Assembly (NCBI GenBank): GCA_013178015.1
Contig: JABLXR010000022.1
Location: forward strand, 1-61,975
DNA: 61,975 nucleotides
Direction of reading: 5' to 3'
DNA from: Anaerolineae bacterium
Lineage (GTDB): Bacteria; Chloroflexota; Anaerolineae; DRVO01
Shown here: positions 43,113 through 61,975 of the stretch, one piece after another
Layout of the letters: each line of letters opens with the position of its first letter
How positions within the stretch are numbered: the first letter of the stretch is position 1
Notes under the pieces: model-generated
What the model was told of the DNA's origin: nothing
Databases searched by the model: none
What the model saw: the letters and a program-made list of their open reading frames with translations, nothing else
Made by a program: the position numbers and the translations under genes

Positions 43113-44099
43113 ATGTCGAGCGAACGCTTGCCCGGCAAGGGAAGAGTGCCGGAGACCAGGCGCATGGCGCGAGTGCTGGACATGCTGCAACACATCAGCG
43201 CCGCACCGGAGCACTGGACTCGCCGGGCCCTGGCGGAGAAGTACGAGGTGGGGGAGCGGCAGATCCAGCGCGACCTGGACGTGATCCGCTACCGGCTGAA
43301 CCTGGACCTGAGGCGCCGGCGGCAGGGCTATTACCTGAAGGAAGTGCCCCGGCTTCCCGTAGTCCACTACAGCCTTTCCGAGGCCCTATCGCTGCTGCTG
43401 GCCGCCCAAGCCGGGCGCGAGTTCGGGGTGGACTCGGCCGAGCTGGGTTCCGCCATCGGCCGGCTGGAGTCGGTGTTCCCGCCCGAGTTCCGCCCCCTGC
43501 TCCGGGAGCTATCGGCCCCGCCCGATGGGTGCACCGACAACGCCCTGGAGGCCTGGCTGCTGGCGCTGCACCGGGCCCTGGCCGCTCGGCGCAAGGTGCG
43601 CCTGGCCTACGCCAGCGCCAGCCGGGAGGGCGAAGTACAGGACCGGGTGGTTCGGCCCTACTGCCTCTTCCCCAAGAACCGGTCCTGGTACCTGCTGGCC
43701 TACTGCGAGCTCCGGAATGAGGTACGGACCTTCAAGGCGGACCGGATCGTAGAGGCCGAGCTCCTGCCGGACCGGTATCGGGTACCGGACGATTTCAGCG
43801 TGCAGGGGATGGCGGGAGCCGCTTGGGGGCTAATGTGGGGGGCGGCGGGGGAGCCGGAGAGGGTGCGGCTGGAGTTCTCACCGGAGGCGGGGAGGTGGGT
43901 GGCCGAGGACGAGTGGCACCCCTCTCAGCAGGTGGAGGTGCGGGACGACGGCCGGTACGAAGTCCGGTTCGAGGTGGGGGTGACGCCGGAGTTCGTGCGT
44001 TGGCTGCTGTGGTACGGGCGGGACGTGCAGGTGCTGGAGCCGGCCTGGCTGCGGGAGCGGGTGGCAGAGGAACACCGGGCCGCGTCGCAGATGCGGTAA
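43113..44099 (+). CDS. HTH-WYL transcription regulator next to the CRISPR locus
   Basis: A 328-residue protein. The N-terminal winged helix-turn-helix is ARVLDMLQHISAAPEHWTRR followed by ALAEKYEVGERQIQRDLDVI. The WYL domain contains KVRLAYASASREGE, RPYCLFPKNRSWYLLAYCE and EVRTFKADRIVEAEL. A C-terminal WCX-like part (PERVRLEFSPEAGRWVAED, then WLLWYGRDVQVLEP) completes the family. WYL proteins sense nucleic acids or nucleotides and often regulate CRISPR or other defence genes. It reads towards the cas genes and is the first gene of the defence region. Confidence 0.88.
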   Translation: MSSERLPGKGRVPETRRMARVLDMLQHISAAPEHWTRRALAEKYEVGERQIQRDLDVIRYRLNLDLRRRRQGYYLKEVPRLPVVHYSLSEALSLLLAAQAGREFGVDSAELGSAIGRLESVFPPEFRPLLRELSAPPDGCTDNALEAWLLALHRALAARRKVRLAYASASREGEVQDRVVRPYCLFPKNRSWYLLAYCELRNEVRTFKADRIVEAELLPDRYRVPDDFSVQGMAGAAWGLMWGAAGEPERVRLEFSPEAGRWVAEDEWHPSQQVEVRDDGRYEVRFEVGVTPEFVRWLLWYGRDVQVLEPAWLRERVAEEHRAASQMR

Positions 44100-44225
44100 G
44101 CATGTGCAATCAGTACCCGGGTAATACCTTAGGGGGATTGAAAATCCGCGGGAGGTGGCCTATAGTTGCGGCGTCCTTTCACGCTCATCTGAATAGGCAC
44201 GCGCCGGGCAAGGAGGTGGATCGAG

Positions 44226-44254
44226 GTGCTGAGGTACACTGGCCATCCTTCGTA
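44226..44254 (+). repeat. Duplicated start of cas8b1 (29 bp, one mismatch)
   Basis: GTGCTGAGGTACACTGGCCA followed by TCCTT and GTA is repeated at 44862-44890, where it is the true cas8b1 start. Both copies are preceded by GGAGG. The copies are 636 bp apart and bracket the mini-CRISPR, the promoter and a small gene. This looks like a partial duplication or an insertion with repeated ends. Confidence 0.85.
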
Positions 44255-44374: not shown

Positions 44375-44455
44375 CAGCATCCTCGAAGCGGATCGATTCC
44401 CGGTCCTGTATCCGACCACTAGACTAGGCGTTTTTCAGTATCCTGGCGCGGATCG
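44375..44455 (-). CRISPR. Degenerate mini-CRISPR: two pseudo-repeats and one 36-nt pseudo-spacer
   Basis: On the minus strand, pseudo-repeat 1 (44455-44432) matches the 3' 24 bases of the array repeat at 19 positions: CGATCCG, a changed four-base loop, AGGATACTGAAA. Pseudo-repeat 2 (44395-44375) reads CGATCCG, five loop bases, AGGATGCTG. In both the stem ATCC/GGAT is kept and the changes fall mainly in the loop. Between them is a 36-nt pseudo-spacer (44431-44396), the same length as real spacers here. Its first 20 nt match the cas promoter start region at 44518-44499 with one mismatch. The Cas6 encoded downstream could process it. Confidence 0.75.
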
Positions 44456-44465
44456 AAATGCTCTC

Positions 44466-44494
44466 TTGACGGACAGCGGAGAGTGTGCTATGAT
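44466..44494 (+). promoter_or_regulatory. Strong sigma-70-type promoter ahead of the cas operon
   Basis: TTGACG (44466-44471) and TATGAT (44489-44494) are 17 bp apart. Transcription would start near 44501 and run into the small gene at 44543 and then cas8b1. This is the best promoter match I see in the defence region. Confidence 0.7.
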
Positions 44495-44498
44495 TGGC

Positions 44499-44518
44499 CC
44501 GACCACGAGACTAGGCGT
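44499..44518 (-). promoter_or_regulatory. Putative target site of the pseudo-spacer
   Basis: Minus-strand ACGCCTAGTCTCGTGGTCGG matches the first 20 nt of the pseudo-spacer except position 12. Its 5' flank on that strand is CCC, unlike the repeat end (AAAC), so it can serve as a PAM. The site covers the expected transcription start, so a bound Cascade would block the promoter. Confidence 0.65.
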
Positions 44519-44542
44519 GGGCACTCCCTACCGGAGGTCAAG

Positions 44543-44815
44543 ATGGGCTACGGTCGTGTCCTTCTCAGTACAACCTCCCTCGCCATCCGCTTCGAGAGAA
44601 TCGGCGAGTGGCATAAATTCGACTTCATTCTGGATCGCTTTCGACAGGGCTTCCCGGAAGCCATCTGGGACCCCACGAGGAGAGCTTGGCTGCTGCCCCA
44701 TTCATGCCTGCCCAGGGTACAGGGCTTCTGTGAGGACCTCTTCGGACCCCATGGCTTCCAACTGCAACTCGATTCTAGCACAGCACCGCCATTCCACCAA
44801 TTGGTGCTGAACTGA
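44543..44815 (+). CDS. Small protein of unknown function between promoter and cas8b1
   Basis: A 90-residue protein with a very good ribosome site (GGAGG six bases before ATG 44543). The middle, FRQGFPEAIWDPTRRAWLLP, resembles the short HARP-like motif seen in front of some SNF2 helicases (a hydrophobic turn, WDP, basic, W, LP), and a helix LPRVQGFCEDLFG follows. No catalytic motif is visible. It is the first gene after the guide-controlled promoter and 46 bp ahead of cas8b1. It might be an unrecognised Cas accessory, a regulator or a toxin. Confidence 0.55.
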   Translation: MGYGRVLLSTTSLAIRFERIGEWHKFDFILDRFRQGFPEAIWDPTRRAWLLPHSCLPRVQGFCEDLFGPHGFQLQLDSSTAPPFHQLVLN

Positions 44816-44861: not shown

Positions 44862-46319
44862 GTGCTGAGGTACACTGGCCATCCTTTGTATGACGTAGGG
44901 GTCGCCACGATCACCGCGTTCGCGGGCAAGAGGGATCCCGCCGACCTGGTAGAGTCGGACCTGGAGGCGATCGCGACCTACATGGCTCGCGAGTATGTGC
45001 GTCAGCCGCTCAAGTCGTTCCTGACCGTGGCCTTCCCCAACTCCGGCTTCACCCAGCCGGCATTCGAGAAGACGCCGGAGCGTCGCCACGCATACGCCCA
45101 GAGCGTTCTCGGGGCCTATGGCGCACTTCCTCTGGACGACGAGACCTGCATCTTCACTGGGGAACCGGCAGCAGCAGTCATCTTCAAGGACAGGGACGAC
45201 GTCCCGCCCGGTCGTGCCTTCCGCCAGCACATCCCCCTGCTGACCGGCGAAGGCGTAATCAACTTCCATCCCTACGGCGACGCCGGCGTCCCGGTCTCGG
45301 GAACAGCCATGCTGGCGCTGCAAGCGCTTCCTCTCGGTTCCGCCAAGGTGGGCGGCCGTCTGCTCGCCGTGCACTCGGACAATGAGGAGATCATCTACCA
45401 CTTCGCCGCCTCTTTCCTAGAGGAGAACCGTCGGCTCATTCAGCTGGCCCAGGCCGAGGGCAGTACCAAGATGCCGGAGCCGCGGCTCTCCTATCGCACG
45501 CTGCTCATCGCCACCCTGCTCAACGCGCAGCGGATGCAGCGCGAGGCCGTCGCCTCGGAGGAGCCTTTCTCCATCACCGCCTACCATCTGACCAACTCCG
45601 GTCAGGGCGCGGACCTGAGTATGTACCATCTGCCCTCGCAGGTCGTCAGCTTTCTAGCGGAGATGTTCACCGCTAAGTACCGAGGCAAGTGGCAGACGAT
45701 CGTGAACCGAGCGTGGGAGAGGCCCGGGCGCGGTGCCGGTGAGGACTTCGAGCCGGGCCGAAACTACCTGTACGAGGACCTCTTCGGACTTCCGGATAAC
45801 GCCCGGTTCTTCGTACGCACCTACCTCCTGCGCGAGGCAGCGCAGTATGCGCGAGGGCGCGCGCAGGACCCGCGGGGGGAGTATTCGCTGGCAGAAGAGG
45901 CCGGCATGGTCTCCTGGGACATCACTGAGCGCTTCTTGAGGAGGATAATGAACGTGGACAAGGAGAGGATCGAGCAGATTCGCGCTCTTGGCGACAGACT
46001 GGCGGAGTACATCAGTTCCGAGAACGACAGAGGTTTCTTCCGCGGCTTCTTCACCGAGCAGAGATATCCTTACTTCAGGAACCTGTTGGTGAAAGCCAAC
46101 CTGCAGAGTGTTAGGCGGGGTCACCCGCCCTTGGTCACTCTAGAGCCGTACATCCAGGTCTTCGAAGAGGGGGACGAGCTCGCCCAGGCCGACTGGCGAC
46201 TGGCTCGGGACCTGGTTCTGATCCGCATGGTCGAGCGCCTATATGAGGCCGGCTGGCTGGGACAGAACCGCGAGACACTCACCGAACTCACGACTGAGGC
46301 TGAGGCCACCGAGCGGTAG
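44862..46319 (+). CDS. cas8b1: Type I-B Cascade large subunit Cas8b1 (Cst1-like)
   Basis: A 485-residue protein with the Cst1/Cas8b1 start LRYTGHPLYDVGVATITAFA. It continues helical, with SITAYHLTNSGQGADLSMYH, a WDITERFLRRIMNVD segment, and a C-terminal helical bundle. The protein recognises PAM and completes the type I-B surveillance complex. Many relatives have paired CxxC motifs; here only a single cysteine remains in DDETCIFTGEPAA, so zinc binding is probably lost. The start is a GTG seven bases after GGAGG. It heads cas8b1-cas7-cas5-cas3-cas6. Confidence 0.85.
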   Translation: MLRYTGHPLYDVGVATITAFAGKRDPADLVESDLEAIATYMAREYVRQPLKSFLTVAFPNSGFTQPAFEKTPERRHAYAQSVLGAYGALPLDDETCIFTGEPAAAVIFKDRDDVPPGRAFRQHIPLLTGEGVINFHPYGDAGVPVSGTAMLALQALPLGSAKVGGRLLAVHSDNEEIIYHFAASFLEENRRLIQLAQAEGSTKMPEPRLSYRTLLIATLLNAQRMQREAVASEEPFSITAYHLTNSGQGADLSMYHLPSQVVSFLAEMFTAKYRGKWQTIVNRAWERPGRGAGEDFEPGRNYLYEDLFGLPDNARFFVRTYLLREAAQYARGRAQDPRGEYSLAEEAGMVSWDITERFLRRIMNVDKERIEQIRALGDRLAEYISSENDRGFFRGFFTEQRYPYFRNLLVKANLQSVRRGHPPLVTLEPYIQVFEEGDELAQADWRLARDLVLIRMVERLYEAGWLGQNRETLTELTTEAEATER

Positions 46320-46352: not shown

Positions 46353-47420
46353 ATGGCGTTCGTTACCGGATTGATGCTGATAGACGCTCCCGCTTCCGCC
46401 CTCAACAACTTGGGCAGCATTCCGGGAGCCCGTACCGACAACACGGTCGGTGTGAAGATGATCCGCGCTGGCGATGGCGCCTATCCCTACGTGTCAGCCC
46501 AGGCGTTCCGCTACTGGCTGAGGCGGACCCTGGAGAGCGCACACCTGGGCTGGCAGGCAGCACCTGTCTACCGCGAGGAGAAAGTCGCCTACACCGACGC
46601 CAACCCCATCAAGTGGTGGGATGATGACCTCTTCGGCTACATGCGGGCTCCTTCGAAGCGCGCTTCGGCCCGCGAGAAGCGGGAAGCCGACACTTCCCGG
46701 GCGGATGAAACGCCCACCACCGAAACCGTGACTCGCGTGTCGCCCTTCCGGGTGAGCACCCTCGTCTCCATCGCGCCGGTGAGTATCACAGAAGACTTTG
46801 GCACTATGTCTCGGCAGGAGGGTGACCCGGTACCTCACGAGCACCAGTTCTATCGCACCACTCTGAAGGGGCTCTACTCCCTGGATCTGCGCGCCTGTGG
46901 GACCTTCTCCTATGCTGACCGAACCGGGTACCTGAACCTCGACGAGGAACGACTCCGCCAGGCACAGGAAGCGGGGCTCGAGCGGCTCGACTCTGTGAAA
47001 TGCTACCGCCTCCCCCGCAAGGAACGCCTGCGACGGGTCGTGGCCCTCTTCGAGGGTCTGGCGCATCTGGAAGGGGGGGCCAAGCAGACTCTTCACTACA
47101 CGGACGTAGCCCCAGCTCTGGTAGTCATGGCCGTCACCAAGGGCGGCAACCACGTCTTCGGACACGTCATCGGCGCCAACTCCCGCCGGCTGCCCGAACT
47201 GAAGCTCGATGCTCTCAGGGAAGCCCTGACCGTGTTCGCCGACGACATCCTGTCGGACGTGTACGTAGGCTGGGTCAAGGGGTACCTGGATGACGAGCGA
47301 GCCAAGCTGGAGGCCTTCGCCCAGACCCCCGAGGGCAGCAGAATCCAGATAAGCCACCCGCGGGAGGCCTACCAGGCACTCATCTCGGACCTGAAGGGCA
47401 ATCCTCACTGGCTCGACTGA
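46353..47420 (+). CDS. cas7: Type I-B backbone protein Cas7 (Cst2/DevR)
   Basis: A 355-residue RAMP protein of the DevR/Cst2 type: FVTGLMLIDAPASALNNLGS, DNTVGVKMIRAGDGAYPYVS and AQAFRYWLRRTLE. The glycine-rich tail of the fold is GHVIGANSRRLPELKLDALR. It coats the crRNA in the Cascade backbone. AGGAGG stands six bases before the ATG. The stretch around residues 95-130 is charged and probably a flexible thumb. It lies 33 bp after cas8b1. Confidence 0.9.
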   Translation: MAFVTGLMLIDAPASALNNLGSIPGARTDNTVGVKMIRAGDGAYPYVSAQAFRYWLRRTLESAHLGWQAAPVYREEKVAYTDANPIKWWDDDLFGYMRAPSKRASAREKREADTSRADETPTTETVTRVSPFRVSTLVSIAPVSITEDFGTMSRQEGDPVPHEHQFYRTTLKGLYSLDLRACGTFSYADRTGYLNLDEERLRQAQEAGLERLDSVKCYRLPRKERLRRVVALFEGLAHLEGGAKQTLHYTDVAPALVVMAVTKGGNHVFGHVIGANSRRLPELKLDALREALTVFADDILSDVYVGWVKGYLDDERAKLEAFAQTPEGSRIQISHPREAYQALISDLKGNPHWLD

Positions 47421-47453
47421 GCCGGGCGCCCAGTGCCTCCTGGGAGGTGGAAC

Positions 47454-48191
47454 ATGCGGGTACTCAAGGTAGTGGCGGAAGGGCTCACCACCTCCTTCCG
47501 CTACCCCCTCTTTATGCTGCAGGTCCATCCCACGTTCCTGATGCCGCCGCCGGCCACAATCTACGGCCACATCAGTAGCGCTCTGGGGGAGTGGTTCGAC
47601 CCAGAAGGGGTACGCTTCGCCTACCACTTCCACCACGACGGCACGGTCAGGGACATCGAGCACGTCATCGTGCTCAGTGCGTCAACCGGCAAGCTGAAAG
47701 GAACCGACTACCCGAAGGTGCTGGAAGGCAACGTCAATCCTTTCGAGCGGGACATGTTCTTCCGGCCCCGGCTCACCCTGTACGTGAACCGACCGGAGTG
47801 GGAGAGCGCCTTCCGCAGCCCCCGCTATGCCGTGGCCCTGGGGCGTTCGCAAGACCTCTTCACTTACACCAGCATCGAGGTGGTCGAGCTCGAGCAGGCA
47901 GAGTGCGCCTACTTCGAGAACACCATCCTTCCCCACGAAATGGCCATCGAGGTCCAGCGCGGGCTGGCTGTTCTGATGCCCCGCTTCCTCGACTACGCCC
48001 ACAACCGACGTCCTCACTTCCAGCAGTACCTGGTAGTCACGGATAGGGTGAGGCTTCCCAATGAGGAAGGACGGCGCTTCGCTCAGGAACAGCAACGGCT
48101 GTATTGGGTAGACCCCGCGTCGGAAGAGGACGACGGTGCCCACCTGGGCCTGGCCTTCCACGGCTTCCTGGAGGAAGCCCATGCCACCTGA
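47454..48191 (+). CDS. cas5: Type I-B Cas5
   Basis: A 245-residue protein with the Cas5t pattern: MRVLKVVAEGLTTSFRYPLF, then LMPPPATIYGHISSALGEWF. Cas5 caps the 5' handle of the crRNA and anchors Cas8. I chose the ATG at 47454 because GGGAGG lies seven bases before it and the protein begins with the family's first strand. Its last 11 bp overlap the cas3 start, which implies coupled translation. Confidence 0.88.
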   Translation: MRVLKVVAEGLTTSFRYPLFMLQVHPTFLMPPPATIYGHISSALGEWFDPEGVRFAYHFHHDGTVRDIEHVIVLSASTGKLKGTDYPKVLEGNVNPFERDMFFRPRLTLYVNRPEWESAFRSPRYAVALGRSQDLFTYTSIEVVELEQAECAYFENTILPHEMAIEVQRGLAVLMPRFLDYAHNRRPHFQQYLVVTDRVRLPNEEGRRFAQEQQRLYWVDPASEEDDGAHLGLAFHGFLEEAHAT

Positions 48192-50571
48192 GGCGTGGCC
48201 CAGTTGGCTCGACCACGTCTGGGCCAAGAGCCCGCCCAGAGGCGGCACCCAGGGCGAGACGCTGGCCCAGCACACCTGGGAGACCCTGGAGCGGCTGGCC
48301 GACTTTGCTCGGCTCAGGCCGGGTCTGCCCGGATCCTTGGGCCTCGAATGCCTCTGGCGTGTCCTGTTTTGGGGGGCCTTCCTGCACGACTTCGGCAAGG
48401 TCGCCGCCAAGTTCCAGGAGGTGCTGCGCAACCAGGGACGGTGGGAACACCGTCACGAAGTGCTATCGCTGGCATTCCTCGATTGGGTCGTGCTGGGGTT
48501 CAGCCAGTCAGAGCAACCCTGGCTAGTGGCCGCGGTCGCTTCCCACCACAAGGATGCCAGCGAACTGGCTGAGCTCTACGACCCACCCGAGGACCCGGAA
48601 GAAGATCAGCTGCTGGCTGCGGTGGCTGACCTGCCGGACGAGGACGTCCGCGGCCTATGGCGTTGGCTGCAATCCTGCAGCCAACGCTGGGTCAACGATC
48701 TGGGCTTCGATCGTCTAGGTGTGTCCTGTCCCCCAATGTACGGCGACGCCAGCCAGGCGTTAGCACTGGTGCGACAAAGCGGAGTGCAGCGGGTTCATCA
48801 CTGGCTCCGGGTGTATCAGCGCTTCGTCAGGCAACTGCGCCAGGGCGCCGCCGCGAGAGAGGTCACTGCGGCCCTGGCGCTCCGAGGACACATCATCAAC
48901 GCCGACCACAGCGCCTCCGCCCATGCCGGGCCCCTGCCTCGACCCCGGTTCGACGCCGATCGAGTGCTGGCAAGTCGAGGTCTGACGTGGGCCAACCTCG
49001 ATGCACACCAGGTAGCCAGCAGCGAGACCCCAGGCTCGGCCGTGCTGATCGCGCCTACCGGCAGCGGCAAGACGGAGGCGGGCCTACTGTGGGCCGCCGC
49101 CCAGGGTAAGTCGGACGGCAGCCCCAGCCGCCTGTTCTACACTCTGCCCTATCAGGCGAGCATGAATGCCATGAAGCTGCGCCTGGATAGCACGTTCGGC
49201 CCAGCCGACGTCGGGTTGCAGCACGGGCGCAGTCTGCTCTCCCTGTATCGCATGCTCCTTGAGGAAGGCGATGACCCCCGAGAGACGGCAAGGAACGCCC
49301 GACGCGCCCGCGACTTGGCCCGGCTCAACTACCCCCCGGTGCGAGTGCTCAGCCCGTACCAGATACTCAAGGCCATGTACCGCCTAAAGGGCTACGAGGC
49401 CCAGCTGAGCGACTACCACGGTGCTGTGTTCATCTTTGATGAGATACACGCCTACGAGCCCGCCCGGTTGGCCATGATTCTCGAGACGGTGGCCTACCTG
49501 CGGGAGAACTACGGCGCCAGCTTCTTCGTCATGAGCGCCACTCTGCCCACCCTCGTCCGGGAGCGGCTGAAGAAGGCACTGGACGCCCCCACCGAGATCG
49601 TTGCCGACGCGGCCGCATACGAGCGCTTCCGGCGTCACCGCCTTCACCTGCTGGATGGGGAGGTGCTTACAGCTGGCAACCTGCAGCGGATCGCGGCCGA
49701 CGCCCGGGCCGGCAAGTCGGTACTGGTGGTCTGCAACGTGGTCCGCCGGGCCCAGGAGGTCTACGGCCTCTTGCGCAGGCTCCTCACGCACGAGGGGTCG
49801 CACGTGGAGCTGCTGCACGGGCGGTTTCACCTCAAGGACCGACTGGCCAAGGAGGCGTTGGTTCGGGAGAGCGCCGGCCTGGCTAGCACCAGCAGGCGGC
49901 CAGTAGTGCTGGTGGCCACCCAGGTAGTCGAGGTCAGCCTCGATGTTGATTTCGATACCGTCTACTCGGACCCCGCGCCTCTGGAAGCTCTGGTTCAGCG
50001 CCTCGGCCGGGTGAACCGCAGGGGAAGGCACGGCGACCTGGCGCCGGTGCACATCTTCCGCGAGCCTGCCGACGGTCAAGGCATCTACTCCGAAGAGCTG
50101 GTGGGCAGCGGCCTGCGGGTTCTGGAGAAGGTCAACGGCCGGGAGGTGGATGAAAGTGCGGTCGGCGACTGGCTTGATGAAGCATACGCTGGCGCGGCGG
50201 CAGTCGCCTGGGAGGAGGAGTACGAGCACTCGGCCGGCGAGTTCTCCGCTACCTGCGTGACCGCCATGCGCCCCTTCGATGCCGACCCGGCTCTGGAGGA
50301 TCTCTTCTACCGGGCCTTCGACAGCATCGAGGTGCTTCCTGCCGACCTGCACGACGACTTCTTCTCCCTTCAGGACTCGGAGCCTATCAGGGCCAACGAG
50401 CTGCTGGTGCCCATCTCCTGGCGGCGCTATTGCGCCTTGCGCGGGTTATCCCTGGCAACCCCTCGCGATGGCGACACTCCACCTGTGGTGCACGTTCCCT
50501 ACAACTCTGAGCTCGGCCTGCTATTCGAGGGATCGGGTAGCTCGAGTGAGGACGATCCGGGCGATTGCTGA
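48181..50571 (+). CDS. cas3: Cas3 helicase-nuclease (HD domain fused to helicase)
   Basis: A 796-residue protein. The HD nuclease has H31, the pair H69-D70 (AFLHDFGKVAAKF) and VASHHKDASE. The helicase has Walker A IAPTGSGKTEAGLL, the DExH box FIFDEIHAYEP, SATLPTLV, and QRLGRVNRRGR. It degrades the DNA strand displaced by Cascade. The start ATG 48181 is within the end of cas5. All catalytic motifs look intact, so the type I-B branch should be able to interfere. Confidence 0.93.
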   Translation: MPPEAWPSWLDHVWAKSPPRGGTQGETLAQHTWETLERLADFARLRPGLPGSLGLECLWRVLFWGAFLHDFGKVAAKFQEVLRNQGRWEHRHEVLSLAFLDWVVLGFSQSEQPWLVAAVASHHKDASELAELYDPPEDPEEDQLLAAVADLPDEDVRGLWRWLQSCSQRWVNDLGFDRLGVSCPPMYGDASQALALVRQSGVQRVHHWLRVYQRFVRQLRQGAAAREVTAALALRGHIINADHSASAHAGPLPRPRFDADRVLASRGLTWANLDAHQVASSETPGSAVLIAPTGSGKTEAGLLWAAAQGKSDGSPSRLFYTLPYQASMNAMKLRLDSTFGPADVGLQHGRSLLSLYRMLLEEGDDPRETARNARRARDLARLNYPPVRVLSPYQILKAMYRLKGYEAQLSDYHGAVFIFDEIHAYEPARLAMILETVAYLRENYGASFFVMSATLPTLVRERLKKALDAPTEIVADAAAYERFRRHRLHLLDGEVLTAGNLQRIAADARAGKSVLVVCNVVRRAQEVYGLLRRLLTHEGSHVELLHGRFHLKDRLAKEALVRESAGLASTSRRPVVLVATQVVEVSLDVDFDTVYSDPAPLEALVQRLGRVNRRGRHGDLAPVHIFREPADGQGIYSEELVGSGLRVLEKVNGREVDESAVGDWLDEAYAGAAAVAWEEEYEHSAGEFSATCVTAMRPFDADPALEDLFYRAFDSIEVLPADLHDDFFSLQDSEPIRANELLVPISWRRYCALRGLSLATPRDGDTPPVVHVPYNSELGLLFEGSGSSSEDDPGDC

Positions 50572-50608
50572 CCTGAGTAGGCTACTTGCTGTACGTGAGG
50601 CATGCCCC

Positions 50609-51610
50609 ATGCTCACCACCCACCAACTCCACATCACCTGCCGAGCCCTCACCCCCATCCACTTCAACCAGCACAAGGGCTCCGCCATCCGCGGGGCCCT
50701 CTTCGCCGCCATCCGCGGCTACGACCACCCCCACGCCCAGTGGTCCGGCTTCTGCGCCAACAAGGCCGCCCCCCACTGCTCCCAGTGCCCCGTCAGCACC
50801 GTCTGCCCCGTCATGCGCCTCGTCTCCACCCTCGACGAGCGCGGCACCTTCGGCCGAGACGCCCCCCGACCCTACGTCATCAACCCACCCCTCGGGCCCA
50901 AGGCCGACTACCTCCCCGACGAGGAACTCGCCTTCGACCTCCTCCTCGTGGGCGAGGCGGGCCAGCTCTTCCCCTACGTCGTCCTGGCCCTGGACCGGCT
51001 CGCCCACGAGGGTCTGGGCCAAAGGCGCGAGGATAGCGACGGACACTGGCGCCGCGGCACCGCCCAGGTGATCCGCATAGACGCCGTCCACCCCCTCCGA
51101 GGCCACACCGCCCCCGTCCTGCGCGAGGGGGACAAGGTGGTGCAGGTGCCCTCCCTCCCCGTCACCCACGAGGACGTCGAGCAGGCGGCGGCGCATCTGC
51201 CCACCATGGGGCCCCTCACCCTCCAGCTCCTCACCCCCCTCCGGCTGGTGGACCGGGGCCGGCTGGTGAAAGAGCCCCAGTTCCGGCCCCTCATCCAGCG
51301 GCTGCTGGAGCGGTTCAAGAGCCTGGCCGAGAACTTCGGCGGCGGCCCGGTCCCCTACGACATCGGCGACCTGCGCGATCGGGCCCGGGCAGTGCGCCTG
51401 GTCGAGGACAGGACCCGTTGGGTGGACCTGCGGGGGTACAGCGGTCGGCTGGGCCGGGGCCAGGAGATCGGCGGGCTGGTGGGCCGGGTAACCTACGAGG
51501 CCGACGACTGGGAGCCCTTCACCCCCTGGCTAGTGTGGGGGACGCTGCTGCACGCGGGGAAGAACGCGGTCAAGGGGGATGGGTGGTTTGCGGTGCGGAG
51601 GGCGTGGTGA
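50609..51610 (+). CDS. cas6: Cas6 crRNA endoribonuclease
   Basis: A 333-residue RAMP nuclease. It has ITCRALTPIHFNQHKGSAIR near the start, and a cysteine cluster (WSGFCANKAAPHC, SQCPVSTVCP) that in this Cas6 branch probably binds metal. The RAMP glycine loop near the C-terminus is GGLVGRVTYEADDWEPF and the end is LLHAGKNAVKGDGWFAVRRA. Histidine 18 or a nearby residue may be catalytic. It is the only Cas6 in the window, so it likely processes the array for both effector complexes and the mini-CRISPR. The ATG at 50609 follows GAGG by eight bases. Confidence 0.82.
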   Translation: MLTTHQLHITCRALTPIHFNQHKGSAIRGALFAAIRGYDHPHAQWSGFCANKAAPHCSQCPVSTVCPVMRLVSTLDERGTFGRDAPRPYVINPPLGPKADYLPDEELAFDLLLVGEAGQLFPYVVLALDRLAHEGLGQRREDSDGHWRRGTAQVIRIDAVHPLRGHTAPVLREGDKVVQVPSLPVTHEDVEQAAAHLPTMGPLTLQLLTPLRLVDRGRLVKEPQFRPLIQRLLERFKSLAENFGGGPVPYDIGDLRDRARAVRLVEDRTRWVDLRGYSGRLGRGQEIGGLVGRVTYEADDWEPFTPWLVWGTLLHAGKNAVKGDGWFAVRRAW

Positions 51611-51640: not shown

Positions 51641-51872
51641 TGGAGTGCTCCCTCGGGCGTCCAAGTTTCGGGTCTCTGTAGCTCGGTGCCCGGGCCAGTT
51701 CGCGGCGCCGAGCTAGGATGAGAAGGATACATGACAGGGAAGCGACAGAGCGCCGGGCGAGAAGCTCTAGAAGCGGCCACCTGTAACCCACACCCCGGCC
51801 GCAGGCCCTCAGCGGGCGCCTTTGGCCATCCGCGGCCCGGAGCCCGACTCGCCCCCCAGCGCCTCTGGCGCA

Positions 51873-52805
51873 ATGGAGGTGAACGTGCCCGAACTGAAGC
51901 TCACCCTAGAGACGGTAACCCCGCTATTCCTCGGCGGAGCTGATCCACAGGAGCCGCCCGAGTTGCGTCCGCCCGCCTTCCGCGGCGCCATGCGGTACTG
52001 GCTGCGAGCGGCGCTCGGAGGTGTCCTGGGCGATGGCGACCTAGATGCCCTGCGCCTGCTAGAAAGCCGCGTGTTCGGGAGCACTGTAGCTGCCTCCCCC
52101 ATCTCCGTCCGCTTGACTGGCAACCTTGAGGCCGACCGGTATCCCATCCTGCCCCACAAGCAGAACGGCCATTCCCGGGAGGGCGGGCAGCGCCGCGCCT
52201 TCGGCCCAGATCAGACGTTTGACCTCGTGCTGGAGCAGCCGCCCGAGCTAGGCTCAGGTGCGACCTGGAAAGCCGGCTGCGCCGCTCTCAACCTAATGCT
52301 CACGTGCGGTGGCGTTGGTCTTCGCTCCCGGCGAGGGTACGGCACCCTGCGCGCTGTGCGCTCCACTGCCCCGGAGCTGGTTCCACCATCGCCGGACTCC
52401 ATCTCCGGCTGGCGTCGGCGAGTCAAGGAGGCCATCGAGGGTGCGGTGGCCGCCGCCCGATTCCTGGCCCGAGACCAGAGCATGGCCGTCGTCCGTTCTC
52501 CCGCCGGGCCGGCTCAGTTTCCCTGCTTGGGCGGGGCGACGACCGTGCGCGTCTACGACGTACGCGCCCATTCGGCCATGGATGCCGTGCGCCAGTTCAT
52601 GTCTAAGGTGCCCAGGAACCCGGCCTTCGGGGGGATCAGTCCGCGCCAGGCTTCACCTCTCTGGGTGCGGCCGATAGCGACGGGCCGGACCTATGGGCTC
52701 CTCTTCATCATACTGCCGTCCCGGTTCTCCAGGGCGGACTATGATCGCGTGGAGGGCTTTCTCAAGGCCAACTTCTCCATCCGCCACGCAGGGCAAGAGG
52801 AGTGA
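51873..52805 (+). CDS. cmr1: Type III-B Cmr1
   Basis: A 310-residue RAMP protein with the Cmr1 signature TPLFLGGADPQEPPELRPPA followed by FRGAMRYWLRAALGG. The second part contains GGVGLRSRRGYGTLR, the glycine-rich loop. Cmr1 binds the 3' end of the crRNA-target region in the Cmr complex. The chosen ATG 51873 stands directly before the first beta strand; a longer start at 51822 is possible. The gene opens a tightly overlapping plus-strand operon through cmr6. Confidence 0.88.
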   Translation: MEVNVPELKLTLETVTPLFLGGADPQEPPELRPPAFRGAMRYWLRAALGGVLGDGDLDALRLLESRVFGSTVAASPISVRLTGNLEADRYPILPHKQNGHSREGGQRRAFGPDQTFDLVLEQPPELGSGATWKAGCAALNLMLTCGGVGLRSRRGYGTLRAVRSTAPELVPPSPDSISGWRRRVKEAIEGAVAAARFLARDQSMAVVRSPAGPAQFPCLGGATTVRVYDVRAHSAMDAVRQFMSKVPRNPAFGGISPRQASPLWVRPIATGRTYGLLFIILPSRFSRADYDRVEGFLKANFSIRHAGQEE

Positions 52806-52810
52806 CCAAC

Positions 52811-54547
52811 ATGAGCCATGCAGTCCTCATCTTCACCTTCAGCCCCATCCAGAGCTTCATCTCCCAGGCCCGGCGCACCGCGGACCTGTACGCCGGAAGC
52901 CGCATACTGGCCGAACTGGCGCGGGCTGCCCTTGAGGCCATCGCCTGTGCCGGCAGTACCATCGTCTACCCGGCCCGCGCTGGTGGCGGCGAGCAGTCGG
53001 ACACACCCAACAAGCTCGTCGCCGTCGTCCCGAGAGAACGGGCTGCAGACCTTGGACGGGCCGCCGAGGACGCCCTCCACCGGCGCTGGAGCCAGATCGT
53101 CGCCGCTGCCGGCGGCAACGCGCTGGCCCATGGTCTCCCAGGCCACGACGACCCAGGCTGGCAATCCATATGGCGGCGGCAAACCGCGCCCCGCTACCTT
53201 TGGCAGTGCTTCTGGGCCGCCGCCAGGATAGGGCCGGATGGCTACAAGGGGGCCTACCAGCAGGCCAGCCGCGCCCTGGACGCCGCCAAGCGAAGCCGGC
53301 TCTTCCTCCCCGCGGAGGAGTGGGGCACCAAAGACAGCCTTAGCGGCCAGCGCGAGGCCCTACACCGTCAGGGGGAGAGAGCCAGCGACTACTGGCGCCA
53401 GGTAAGCAACCTGCCCCGAGTGACCGGCGCCCTGCTGCGGCCGTTCGGCCGCGAGCGGCTGGACGCCATCGGCACCGTCAAGCGCTTCTGGCCCCACCGG
53501 GATTCCTTCCTCTCTACCAGCAGCATCGCCTCCCAACCCTTCCTCGACGCCGCCCGCGAGCAGGCACCAGCCCAGCTGCAGGCATACCGACAGGATCTAG
53601 GCACCTTTCTCGGCCGCTGGCTGCACGAACCCAGGACCGACCCAGACTGGCCCTATGATGGCGACCTCCTCTTCCAGGAGACCCTCACCCCCGAGCGCCT
53701 GCAGGCCAGCTATCGCTCCGGCATCGAGACGGCCGCCCTGGGGCCGCCGCTCCAGGCACTGAAGAAGCTACACCGGACGGTCGGCTTTCCCCCCTCGCCC
53801 TACTACGCCGTTGTCGCCCTCGACGGCGATTCCGTGGGAGAGCACATATCCAAGCTGCTCGAAGAGGGCAATCCTCAGGAGGCCCATTGTCAGTTCGGCC
53901 AGAAGCTCTCGGACTTCGCCGACGTGGTGCAGAAGGTCGCGGCGTTGCACTCCGTTAGCCTGGTCTACAACGGCGGTGACGACGTCCTCGCCCTAGCACC
54001 GGCTTCCTCCGCCCTCCCATTCGCCCATGAACTGGCGCAGGAGTTCCATCGGGTCACCGCAGCCACTGCCTCCGCCGGCATCGCCATCGCCCACCACCTA
54101 TCGCCGCTGGACGCCGCGCTGGAACAGGCACACCAAGCCCAGAACCTGGCTAAGGACATTCCGGGGAAAGACGCCGTATGCGTCACCCTTATGCGCCGCG
54201 GGGGCGAAGCCATCACCGCCCGCGGTCCGTGGTGCTCGGTGATCGCCAACCTGGACCAAGTCACCCAGTACCTCGCCGCTAGGAAGCTCTCCGCTCGGCT
54301 CCCCTACGACATCTGGCAACTTGCCTACGCCATACCTGACGCTAACGACATGCTGCGGGCCGAGCTCAGGCGCCTGGTAGGGCGCCGCGCCGAGGCGCTC
54401 TCAGGCCAGCAGGCCAACGCACTGACCGAAGCACTCGGCCGGTGGGCTGAGGCGTTGACCGAGACGGTCGAGGGGTTGGCACAGTGGCTCATCATCGCGC
54501 GCTTCCTCGCCGGAGCAGAAGGGGGCTCAGATGCATTTGTTTCTTGA
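52811..54547 (+). CDS. cas10: Type III-B Cas10/Cmr2 without HD domain
   Basis: A 578-residue Cas10. It starts directly with the palm region (FTFSPIQSFISQARRTADLY), has VVALDGDSVGEHISKLLEEG, and the cyclase motif LVYNGGDDVLAL (G388-D391). The N-terminal HD nuclease and the zinc finger found in many Cmr2 are absent, which explains the short length. GGDD makes cyclic oligoadenylate when target RNA is bound, and a CARF effector gene follows the operon. The ATG at 52811 is nine bases after AGAGGAG; GTG 52802 overlapping cmr1 is an alternative. Confidence 0.9.
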   Translation: MSHAVLIFTFSPIQSFISQARRTADLYAGSRILAELARAALEAIACAGSTIVYPARAGGGEQSDTPNKLVAVVPRERAADLGRAAEDALHRRWSQIVAAAGGNALAHGLPGHDDPGWQSIWRRQTAPRYLWQCFWAAARIGPDGYKGAYQQASRALDAAKRSRLFLPAEEWGTKDSLSGQREALHRQGERASDYWRQVSNLPRVTGALLRPFGRERLDAIGTVKRFWPHRDSFLSTSSIASQPFLDAAREQAPAQLQAYRQDLGTFLGRWLHEPRTDPDWPYDGDLLFQETLTPERLQASYRSGIETAALGPPLQALKKLHRTVGFPPSPYYAVVALDGDSVGEHISKLLEEGNPQEAHCQFGQKLSDFADVVQKVAALHSVSLVYNGGDDVLALAPASSALPFAHELAQEFHRVTAATASAGIAIAHHLSPLDAALEQAHQAQNLAKDIPGKDAVCVTLMRRGGEAITARGPWCSVIANLDQVTQYLAARKLSARLPYDIWQLAYAIPDANDMLRAELRRLVGRRAEALSGQQANALTEALGRWAEALTETVEGLAQWLIIARFLAGAEGGSDAFVS

Positions 54548-61574: not shown

Positions 61575-61642
61575 GGCAGCAGGAGAGCCTTTCCGCACCT
61601 TAACAGCCGAATACGCCTTGAACAGGGGTACGAACTGCCTCG

Positions 61643-61975
61643 GTTCCAACCCCAACGATCCGACTGAGGATACTGAAACGCCAGTACTCCCGTTCCAGTC
61701 GGCCCGTTTCTGTCGGTTCCAACCCCAACGATCCGACTGAGGATACTGAAACACTACCTGGACCAAACAGGTCAGGTAGTGGAGGAGTTCCAACCCCAAC
61801 GATCCGACTGAGGATACTGAAACCTGTAGCTTGTTCACGATAGCCTCCTGTGGCATACTGTTCCAAACCCAACGATCCGACTGAGGATACTGAAACGCTG
61901 GGCGCTGGACCAGGGTGCGCCCATGCCGCCGGGTTCCAACCCCAACGATCCGACTGAGGATACTGAAACAGTATC
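61643..61975 (+). CRISPR. CRISPR array, five repeats visible, runs off the window
   Basis: The 37-bp repeat begins GTTCCAACCCCAACGATCCG and ends GACTGAGGATACTGAAAC. Copies are at 61643-61679, 61716-61752, 61787-61823, 61860-61896 and 61933-61969. The fourth has one change (A for C at position 8). Spacers are 36, 34, 36 and 36 bp, with six bases of a fifth. The ACTGAAAC end gives the usual 8-nt handle, so the array is read left to right and the leader lies on the cas4 side. The stem ATCC/GGAT is the likely Cas6 site. By eye I found no match of the spacers to the rest of the window. Confidence 0.97.

Follow-up and report, generated by a model that had tools for sequence, protein, structure and literature searches.

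The window analysed here is a 61,975-nt stretch, contig C22 of the 4.57-Mb draft genome of an Anaerolineae bacterium, and carries a type I-B CRISPR-Cas operon. Directly before cas8b lies a small protein-coding gene and, upstream of it on the opposite strand, an element that resembles a CRISPR RNA (crRNA) gene and whose spacer-like part matches the promoter of the small gene. The parts of this module, including the protospacer-adjacent motif (PAM) and the Shine-Dalgarno (SD) sequence, are as follows.

44432..44455, minus strand: pseudo-repeat 1, CGATCCGCGCCAGGATACTGAAAA, with stem ATCC/GGAT and 5' handle ACTGAAAA
44396..44431, minus strand: pseudo-spacer of 36 nt
44375..44395, minus strand: pseudo-repeat 2, CGATCCGCTTCGAGGATGCTG, degenerate, ATCC/GGAT stem kept
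44466..44494, plus strand: sigma-70 promoter TTGACG-N17-TATGAT of the small gene
44499..44518, minus strand: target (protospacer), matched by pseudo-spacer positions 1-20 at 19/20; only position 12 differs
44519..44521, minus strand: PAM CCC, 5' of the protospacer
44543..44815, plus strand: small gene (90 aa) with a strong SD, CGGAGGTCAAG-ATG, and C-terminal QLVLN; putative guarded toxin

Pseudo-repeat 1 aligns to the end of the array repeat (...CGATCCGACTGAGGATACTGAAAC). A search of the whole genome for this half-repeat at ≤3 mismatches returned 29 array copies and pseudo-repeat 1, and nothing else. The first-pass annotation, made from the sequence alone, had described two degenerate minus-strand repeats around a 36-nt pseudo-spacer; its coordinates were confirmed, and the half-repeat occurs outside arrays only here. 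Equally sound were the 19/20 match, the position-12 mismatch, the CCC flank and the placing of the target over the predicted promoter start, which falls at ~44501. Same-length spacers swapped into other loci reach 13/20 at most, against 19/20 in the window. The annotation had called the target the operon's own promoter. The site was right, and its owner is foremost the small gene, with cas8 starting 47 nt behind it: since a second sigma-70-like promoter is found upstream at 44138-44166, the targeted promoter belongs first of all to the small gene. A read-through effect of the guide on the cas genes is possible.

Whole-genome searches, with the protein and then with alignments, identified ten further loci besides the window: G071, G289a and G289b (both in genome G289), G134, G335, G426, G708, G332, G750 and G757. 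Family matches are rare: at E ≤ 0.001, 400 sampled genomes yielded 4-7 with a match, and some of these matches were spurious. The related loci share the class or phylum of the window. Most come from draft genomes, many of which were assembled from metagenomes. Further weak protein matches in G210, G278, G538, G162 and G898 (E ~1e-4 to 1e-3) were short or contained stops and were taken as chance. The family proteins measure ~80-95 aa, and their genes occupy two kinds of cas neighborhood. In G289b, G426 and G750, the small gene sits between a WYL-looking gene and a type I-B-like cas8, and in G071, G289a, G335, G708 and G332 between cas3 and a second kind of cas8. PADLOC identifies the latter as Cas8a (type I-A) in G071, G289a, G335 and G708; the G332 gene, outside the PADLOC scan, is placed with type I-A by its similar layout. 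G757 is cut by a contig end and has a similar cas8 downstream of the small gene. In G134, the gene after the module encodes a WYL-like regulator, and a cas3-cas8a run comes next. A gene for a HerA-like ATPase (615 aa) lies upstream of the G134 module.

All 11 loci possess a guide-like element, comprising a 4-bp hairpin with an ACTG[A/T]AAN handle, 100-200 nt upstream of the small gene and on the opposite strand. The hairpin arms differ by locus (ATCC/GGAT, TTCC/GGAA, ACCC/GGGT, ACTC/GAGT, ACGC/GCGT or ATCT/AGAT). They pair 48/48, a count somewhat favored by fixing the arm length at four and picking the loop for maximal pairing; randomly dealt arms pair 38.9 times on average and reached 48 in 0/10000 trials. 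In G071 and G332, the pseudo-repeat mirrors the array found on its own contig, and in G289a it mirrors one elsewhere in the genome. The G426 stem departs from its array's GATCC/GGAT, with compensatory changes. A search against Rfam gave no match. The full criterion (hairpin-handle/seed match) was satisfied by 0/980 shuffled regions.

Upstream of its small gene, the G332 locus carries two repeat-like units, and behind each comes a stretch that resembles a spacer. The first of these spacers matches the leader of the small gene, and the second has no target that could be found nearby.

The seed, defined as positions 1-5 and 7-11 of the pseudo-spacer, was compared with the locus's own promoter or leader. 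It matches at 10/10 positions in six loci (the window, G071, G289b, G134, G426 and G332) and at 9/10 in G335, G757 and G750. Shuffled spacers reach 10/10 in 2/3300 cases and ≥9 in 104/3300, so each 9/10 locus carries less weight on its own; G750 also offers an alternative 10/10 match with nucleotide 6 missing and no CYN PAM. Although the PAM was not used in choosing targets, all accepted targets have a CYN motif (CCC six times, CTC, CCT and CCG), as does a gapped target in G708 (CCA), whereas shuffled spacers have CYN at their best match in 375/3300. CCC/CCN PAMs are known in type I-B systems (PMC13199841). The targets lie mostly at the start site or in the leader, over the start codon in G335 and just upstream of the -35 element in G289b, and pairing usually ends after ~16-20 nt. 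Because seed scoring ignores positions 6 and 12, these were assessed by weighting positions 1-16 equally: of the 10 mismatches that seven loci have in positions 1-12, 9 are at 6 or 12 (binomial probability roughly 1e-6), the two positions that experiments found to be free in CreA (PMC8501985).

Spacers and targets vary between loci yet agree within each locus. G708 and G757, for example, have homologous pseudo-repeats; the seed differs between them, as does the target, yet seed and target remain matched apart from a single seed position in G757 and a missing nucleotide 6 in G708. The first-pass annotation had named beforehand, as what would refute it, relatives in which the match is not kept; the match is kept in 9/11 loci, with spacer and target changing together. 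The eleven loci thus form a natural experiment on guide-target rules, covering CYN PAMs, free positions 6 and 12 and an end of pairing at ~16-20 nt. A mini-array in decay, matching nearby sequence by chance, would account for the degenerate pseudo-repeats and the poor match in G289a. The shuffles, the swaps, the CYN PAMs and the position-6/12 pattern all speak against such a relic, which the recurrence in 11 loci refutes and to which we give almost no credence.

The guide accompanies the small gene rather than the cas operon, because it is found at 11/11 small-gene loci, whereas 0/49 upstream regions of related cas8b genes without the small protein, all from type I-B-like relatives, contain the hairpin-handle or a seed match. 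This bears on an autorepression of the CreR type, described for type I systems (review PMC12737573), in which the cas operon would be the real target, Cascade would limit its own synthesis and the small gene would be a harmless or accessory leader cistron. The small gene directly precedes cas8 in most loci, with gaps of 0 to tens of nt, and the promoter probably drives cas8 too. Against autorepression stand the 49 related loci that lack both gene and element, and G134, where a WYL-like regulator gene and not cas8 follows the module. The upstream promoter in the window could serve the cas genes, and the protein family is under selection and equipped with a near-consensus promoter and SD. We regard cas autorepression as unlikely, and the absence of the guide from the 49 relatives favors a guard pair. 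The first-pass annotation was thus right about the kind of element, a CreA/CreR-like partial-match guide coupled to a new small gene, for which the 11 loci provide support. Its emphasis shifts from simple cas autorepression (CreR) to a CreTA/CrePA-like element that seems to guard the small gene, and what it took for an independent instance is one case of a module that recurs with a single protein family.

In the closest pair of small proteins from the family (55% identical), dN is 0.37 and dS 1.96 (dN/dS ~0.2), which indicates purifying selection. Toxicity could instead reside in the mRNA, the encoded protein being irrelevant, as haloarchaeal CreT act as RNA by tRNA sequestration (PMC8501985); homology of the protein across genera and its dN/dS make this very improbable. 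Across the family loci, the promoters come close to the consensus (9/11 have an exact TTGACA) and the SDs are strong, consistent with a gene that needs to be held down.

Database searches assigned the family to no described group: Pfam matched none of the nine members scanned, family members had no match in PADLOC, PHROGs or PDB, the window protein fitted no NCBIfam model, and plasmid and phage collections contained no relative. A single-sequence structure model (mean pLDDT 72, pTM 0.64) predicts a small alpha/beta fold, for which fold searches of PDB and viral structures gave no confident relative. A HARP-like fold was considered on a few weak matches and not adopted. The small protein might be a regulator or Cascade accessory, such as a DNA-binding helper or an anti-anti-CRISPR factor, that is induced when Cascade is blocked. 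Its constant place beside cas genes, the lack of a matching toxin family and the modelled fold would suit such a role, whereas the guide-repressed strong promoter and SD, the sporadic distribution and the fast divergence resemble CreT/CreP toxins (PMC12055562). We consider a non-toxic regulator or accessory improbable.

We propose that guide and small gene probably form a two-part guard module of the CreTA/CrePA type, in which Cascade with a crRNA-like RNA represses the small gene, itself probably a toxin. The sequence itself shows the anatomy, the match and its PAM, their recurrence and co-variation, and selection on the protein; we infer transcription, processing, repression, toxicity and the clamp target. 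A creA-type RNA would be transcribed from the minus strand and cut by Cas6 at the pseudo-repeats, and the guide would be loaded into Cascade. The complex may then pair through the seed (positions 1-5, 7-11 and 13 onward) with the start-site region of the strong promoter beside the CCC PAM. With ~20/36 nt paired, binding and repression without Cas3 cutting would be expected. The small gene (44543-44815) would be kept silent, and perhaps cas8 behind it as well. Once Cascade is missing, saturated or inhibited by an anti-CRISPR, the cell would make the small protein, which would most likely stop growth, possibly through a QLxL(F) tail that binds the DNA polymerase sliding clamp.

This tail motif, QLxL within the last 14 aa, occurs in 7/11 members, including QLSLF and QLRLF, with QLVLN in the window protein. 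Shuffled sequences carry it in 0.75% of cases; the 7/11 count reflects conservation among 11 homologues, not 11 independent events. The C-terminal clamp motif is QL(S/D)LF (PMC9690074), and the likeness may point to binding of the sliding clamp, which is the target of the known toxins SocB (PMC9690074) and RipA (PMC12795458). We tentatively speculate that the family is a CRISPR-guarded toxin, common to type I-A and I-B systems and held off by the crRNA-like guide, whose binding to the clamp would arrest the cell, a possibility about which we remain doubtful. Were it true, loss or inhibition of Cascade would lead to replication arrest.

Several observations weigh against a guarded toxin with a clamp-binding tail. 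The window offers no clear promoter on the minus strand from which the guide could be transcribed, the best candidate scoring 7/12. Two of the 11 loci fit poorly, G289a with a seed match of 7/10 and G708 with 10/10 only if the target lacks nucleotide 6. The strict QLxL tail is missing in four homologues, and the small protein matches no known toxin family. The small gene also abuts cas8 in several loci, where cas expression may be affected too.

Guide-target alignments in both G708 and G289a improve if the target is read without the unpaired sixth nucleotide, which may reflect decay or an unusual form of pairing. Gapped pairing of this kind fits G708 and also raises the number of chance matches, and was not counted.

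In CreTA and CrePA, Cascade and a crRNA-like RNA repress a toxin (PMC8501985, PMC12055562, PMC12737573). The module shares several of their traits, namely degenerate repeats matching the cognate array, a PAM-flanked partial seed match at the partner's promoter (9/11) and a location at type I cas genes. CreTA of Citrobacter rodentium (PMC12055562) likewise has a small ORF with a strong promoter and ribosome-binding site in the gap on the cas3/cas8 side, a crRNA-like gene upstream on the opposite strand and a PAM-flanked promoter target, and its toxicity requires translation. It differs in being a type I-E system with a 96-bp ORF and no reported homologues, whereas the putative toxin here is a family of ~80-95-aa proteins in type I-A and I-B systems. 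The type I-B CreTA of Haloarcula (PMC8501985, PMC9458426) has the same psiR1-psiS-psiR2 layout with degenerate repeats, a seed of positions 1-5 and 7-11 with 6 and 12 free, and a place in or beside the cas operon; its toxin is an RNA and its repeats have no conserved hairpin, in contrast to the conserved protein and conserved, compensatory hairpin here. CrePA (review PMC12737573) also involves Cascade-guided repression of a protein-coding gene, in that case a KilA-N toxin, whereas the nine members scanned with Pfam have no KilA-N domain and no sequence relation was found. CreR (same review) shares the crRNA-like guide near the cas operon and the promoter target and generally lacks a toxin gene, while the guide here always comes with the small gene. 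SocB and RipA act on the clamp that is proposed as the target here, and SocB uses a clamp-binding motif (PMC9690074, PMC12795458); they are not known to be related in sequence to the family, a comparison made without alignment, and they differ in having protein antitoxins instead of a guide RNA.

The module extends natural crRNA-like guides to one more part of the bacterial tree, the Chloroflexota, to which most named cas8 relatives belong. The guided protein family had no earlier CRISPR link in the sources searched and spans two Cascade subtypes. If toxic, it would add a conserved protein toxin to the guards that underlie CRISPR addiction and anti-anti-CRISPR defense, with the sliding clamp as a candidate target.

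The surroundings of the module in the window comprise the following features.

43113-44099: WYL-domain regulator gene, ~760 nt upstream of the type I-B operon
44138..44166, plus strand: second sigma-70-like promoter, TTGAAA-N17-TATAGT, upstream of the guide
44226..44254, plus strand: 29-bp duplicate (28/29) of the cas8 start at 44862-44890, forming a direct repeat that flanks the module
44862..46319, plus strand: cas8b, the type I-B large subunit
46353..51610, plus strand: remaining type I-B operon (cas7, cas5, cas3, cas6)
51822-54547: type III-B (Cmr-like) genes, after the type I-B operon
61642..61975, plus strand: CRISPR array with cognate repeat GTTCCAACCCCAACGATCCGACTGAGGATACTGAAAC, continuing on contig C23

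The type III-B genes presumably share the array at 61642, whose spacers led to no usable protospacer in phages (best E 0.5). The promoter at 44138-44166 is the probable ancestral cas promoter, and the 29-bp duplicate probably remains from the original 5' end of cas8, which the insertion of the module would have split. In G002, the closest relative with the same cas8, the module is absent and WYL and cas8 nearly abut. Together with the 29-bp copy before the module, this suggests an insertion at the cas8 start.

In G750, ~42 nt after the small gene resemble the end of the upstream WYL gene at moderate identity, perhaps an insertion scar similar to the 29-bp repeat of the window. The place before cas8 is taken by a different small gene of ~130 aa in G059 and G033, which we presume to resemble Csx15.
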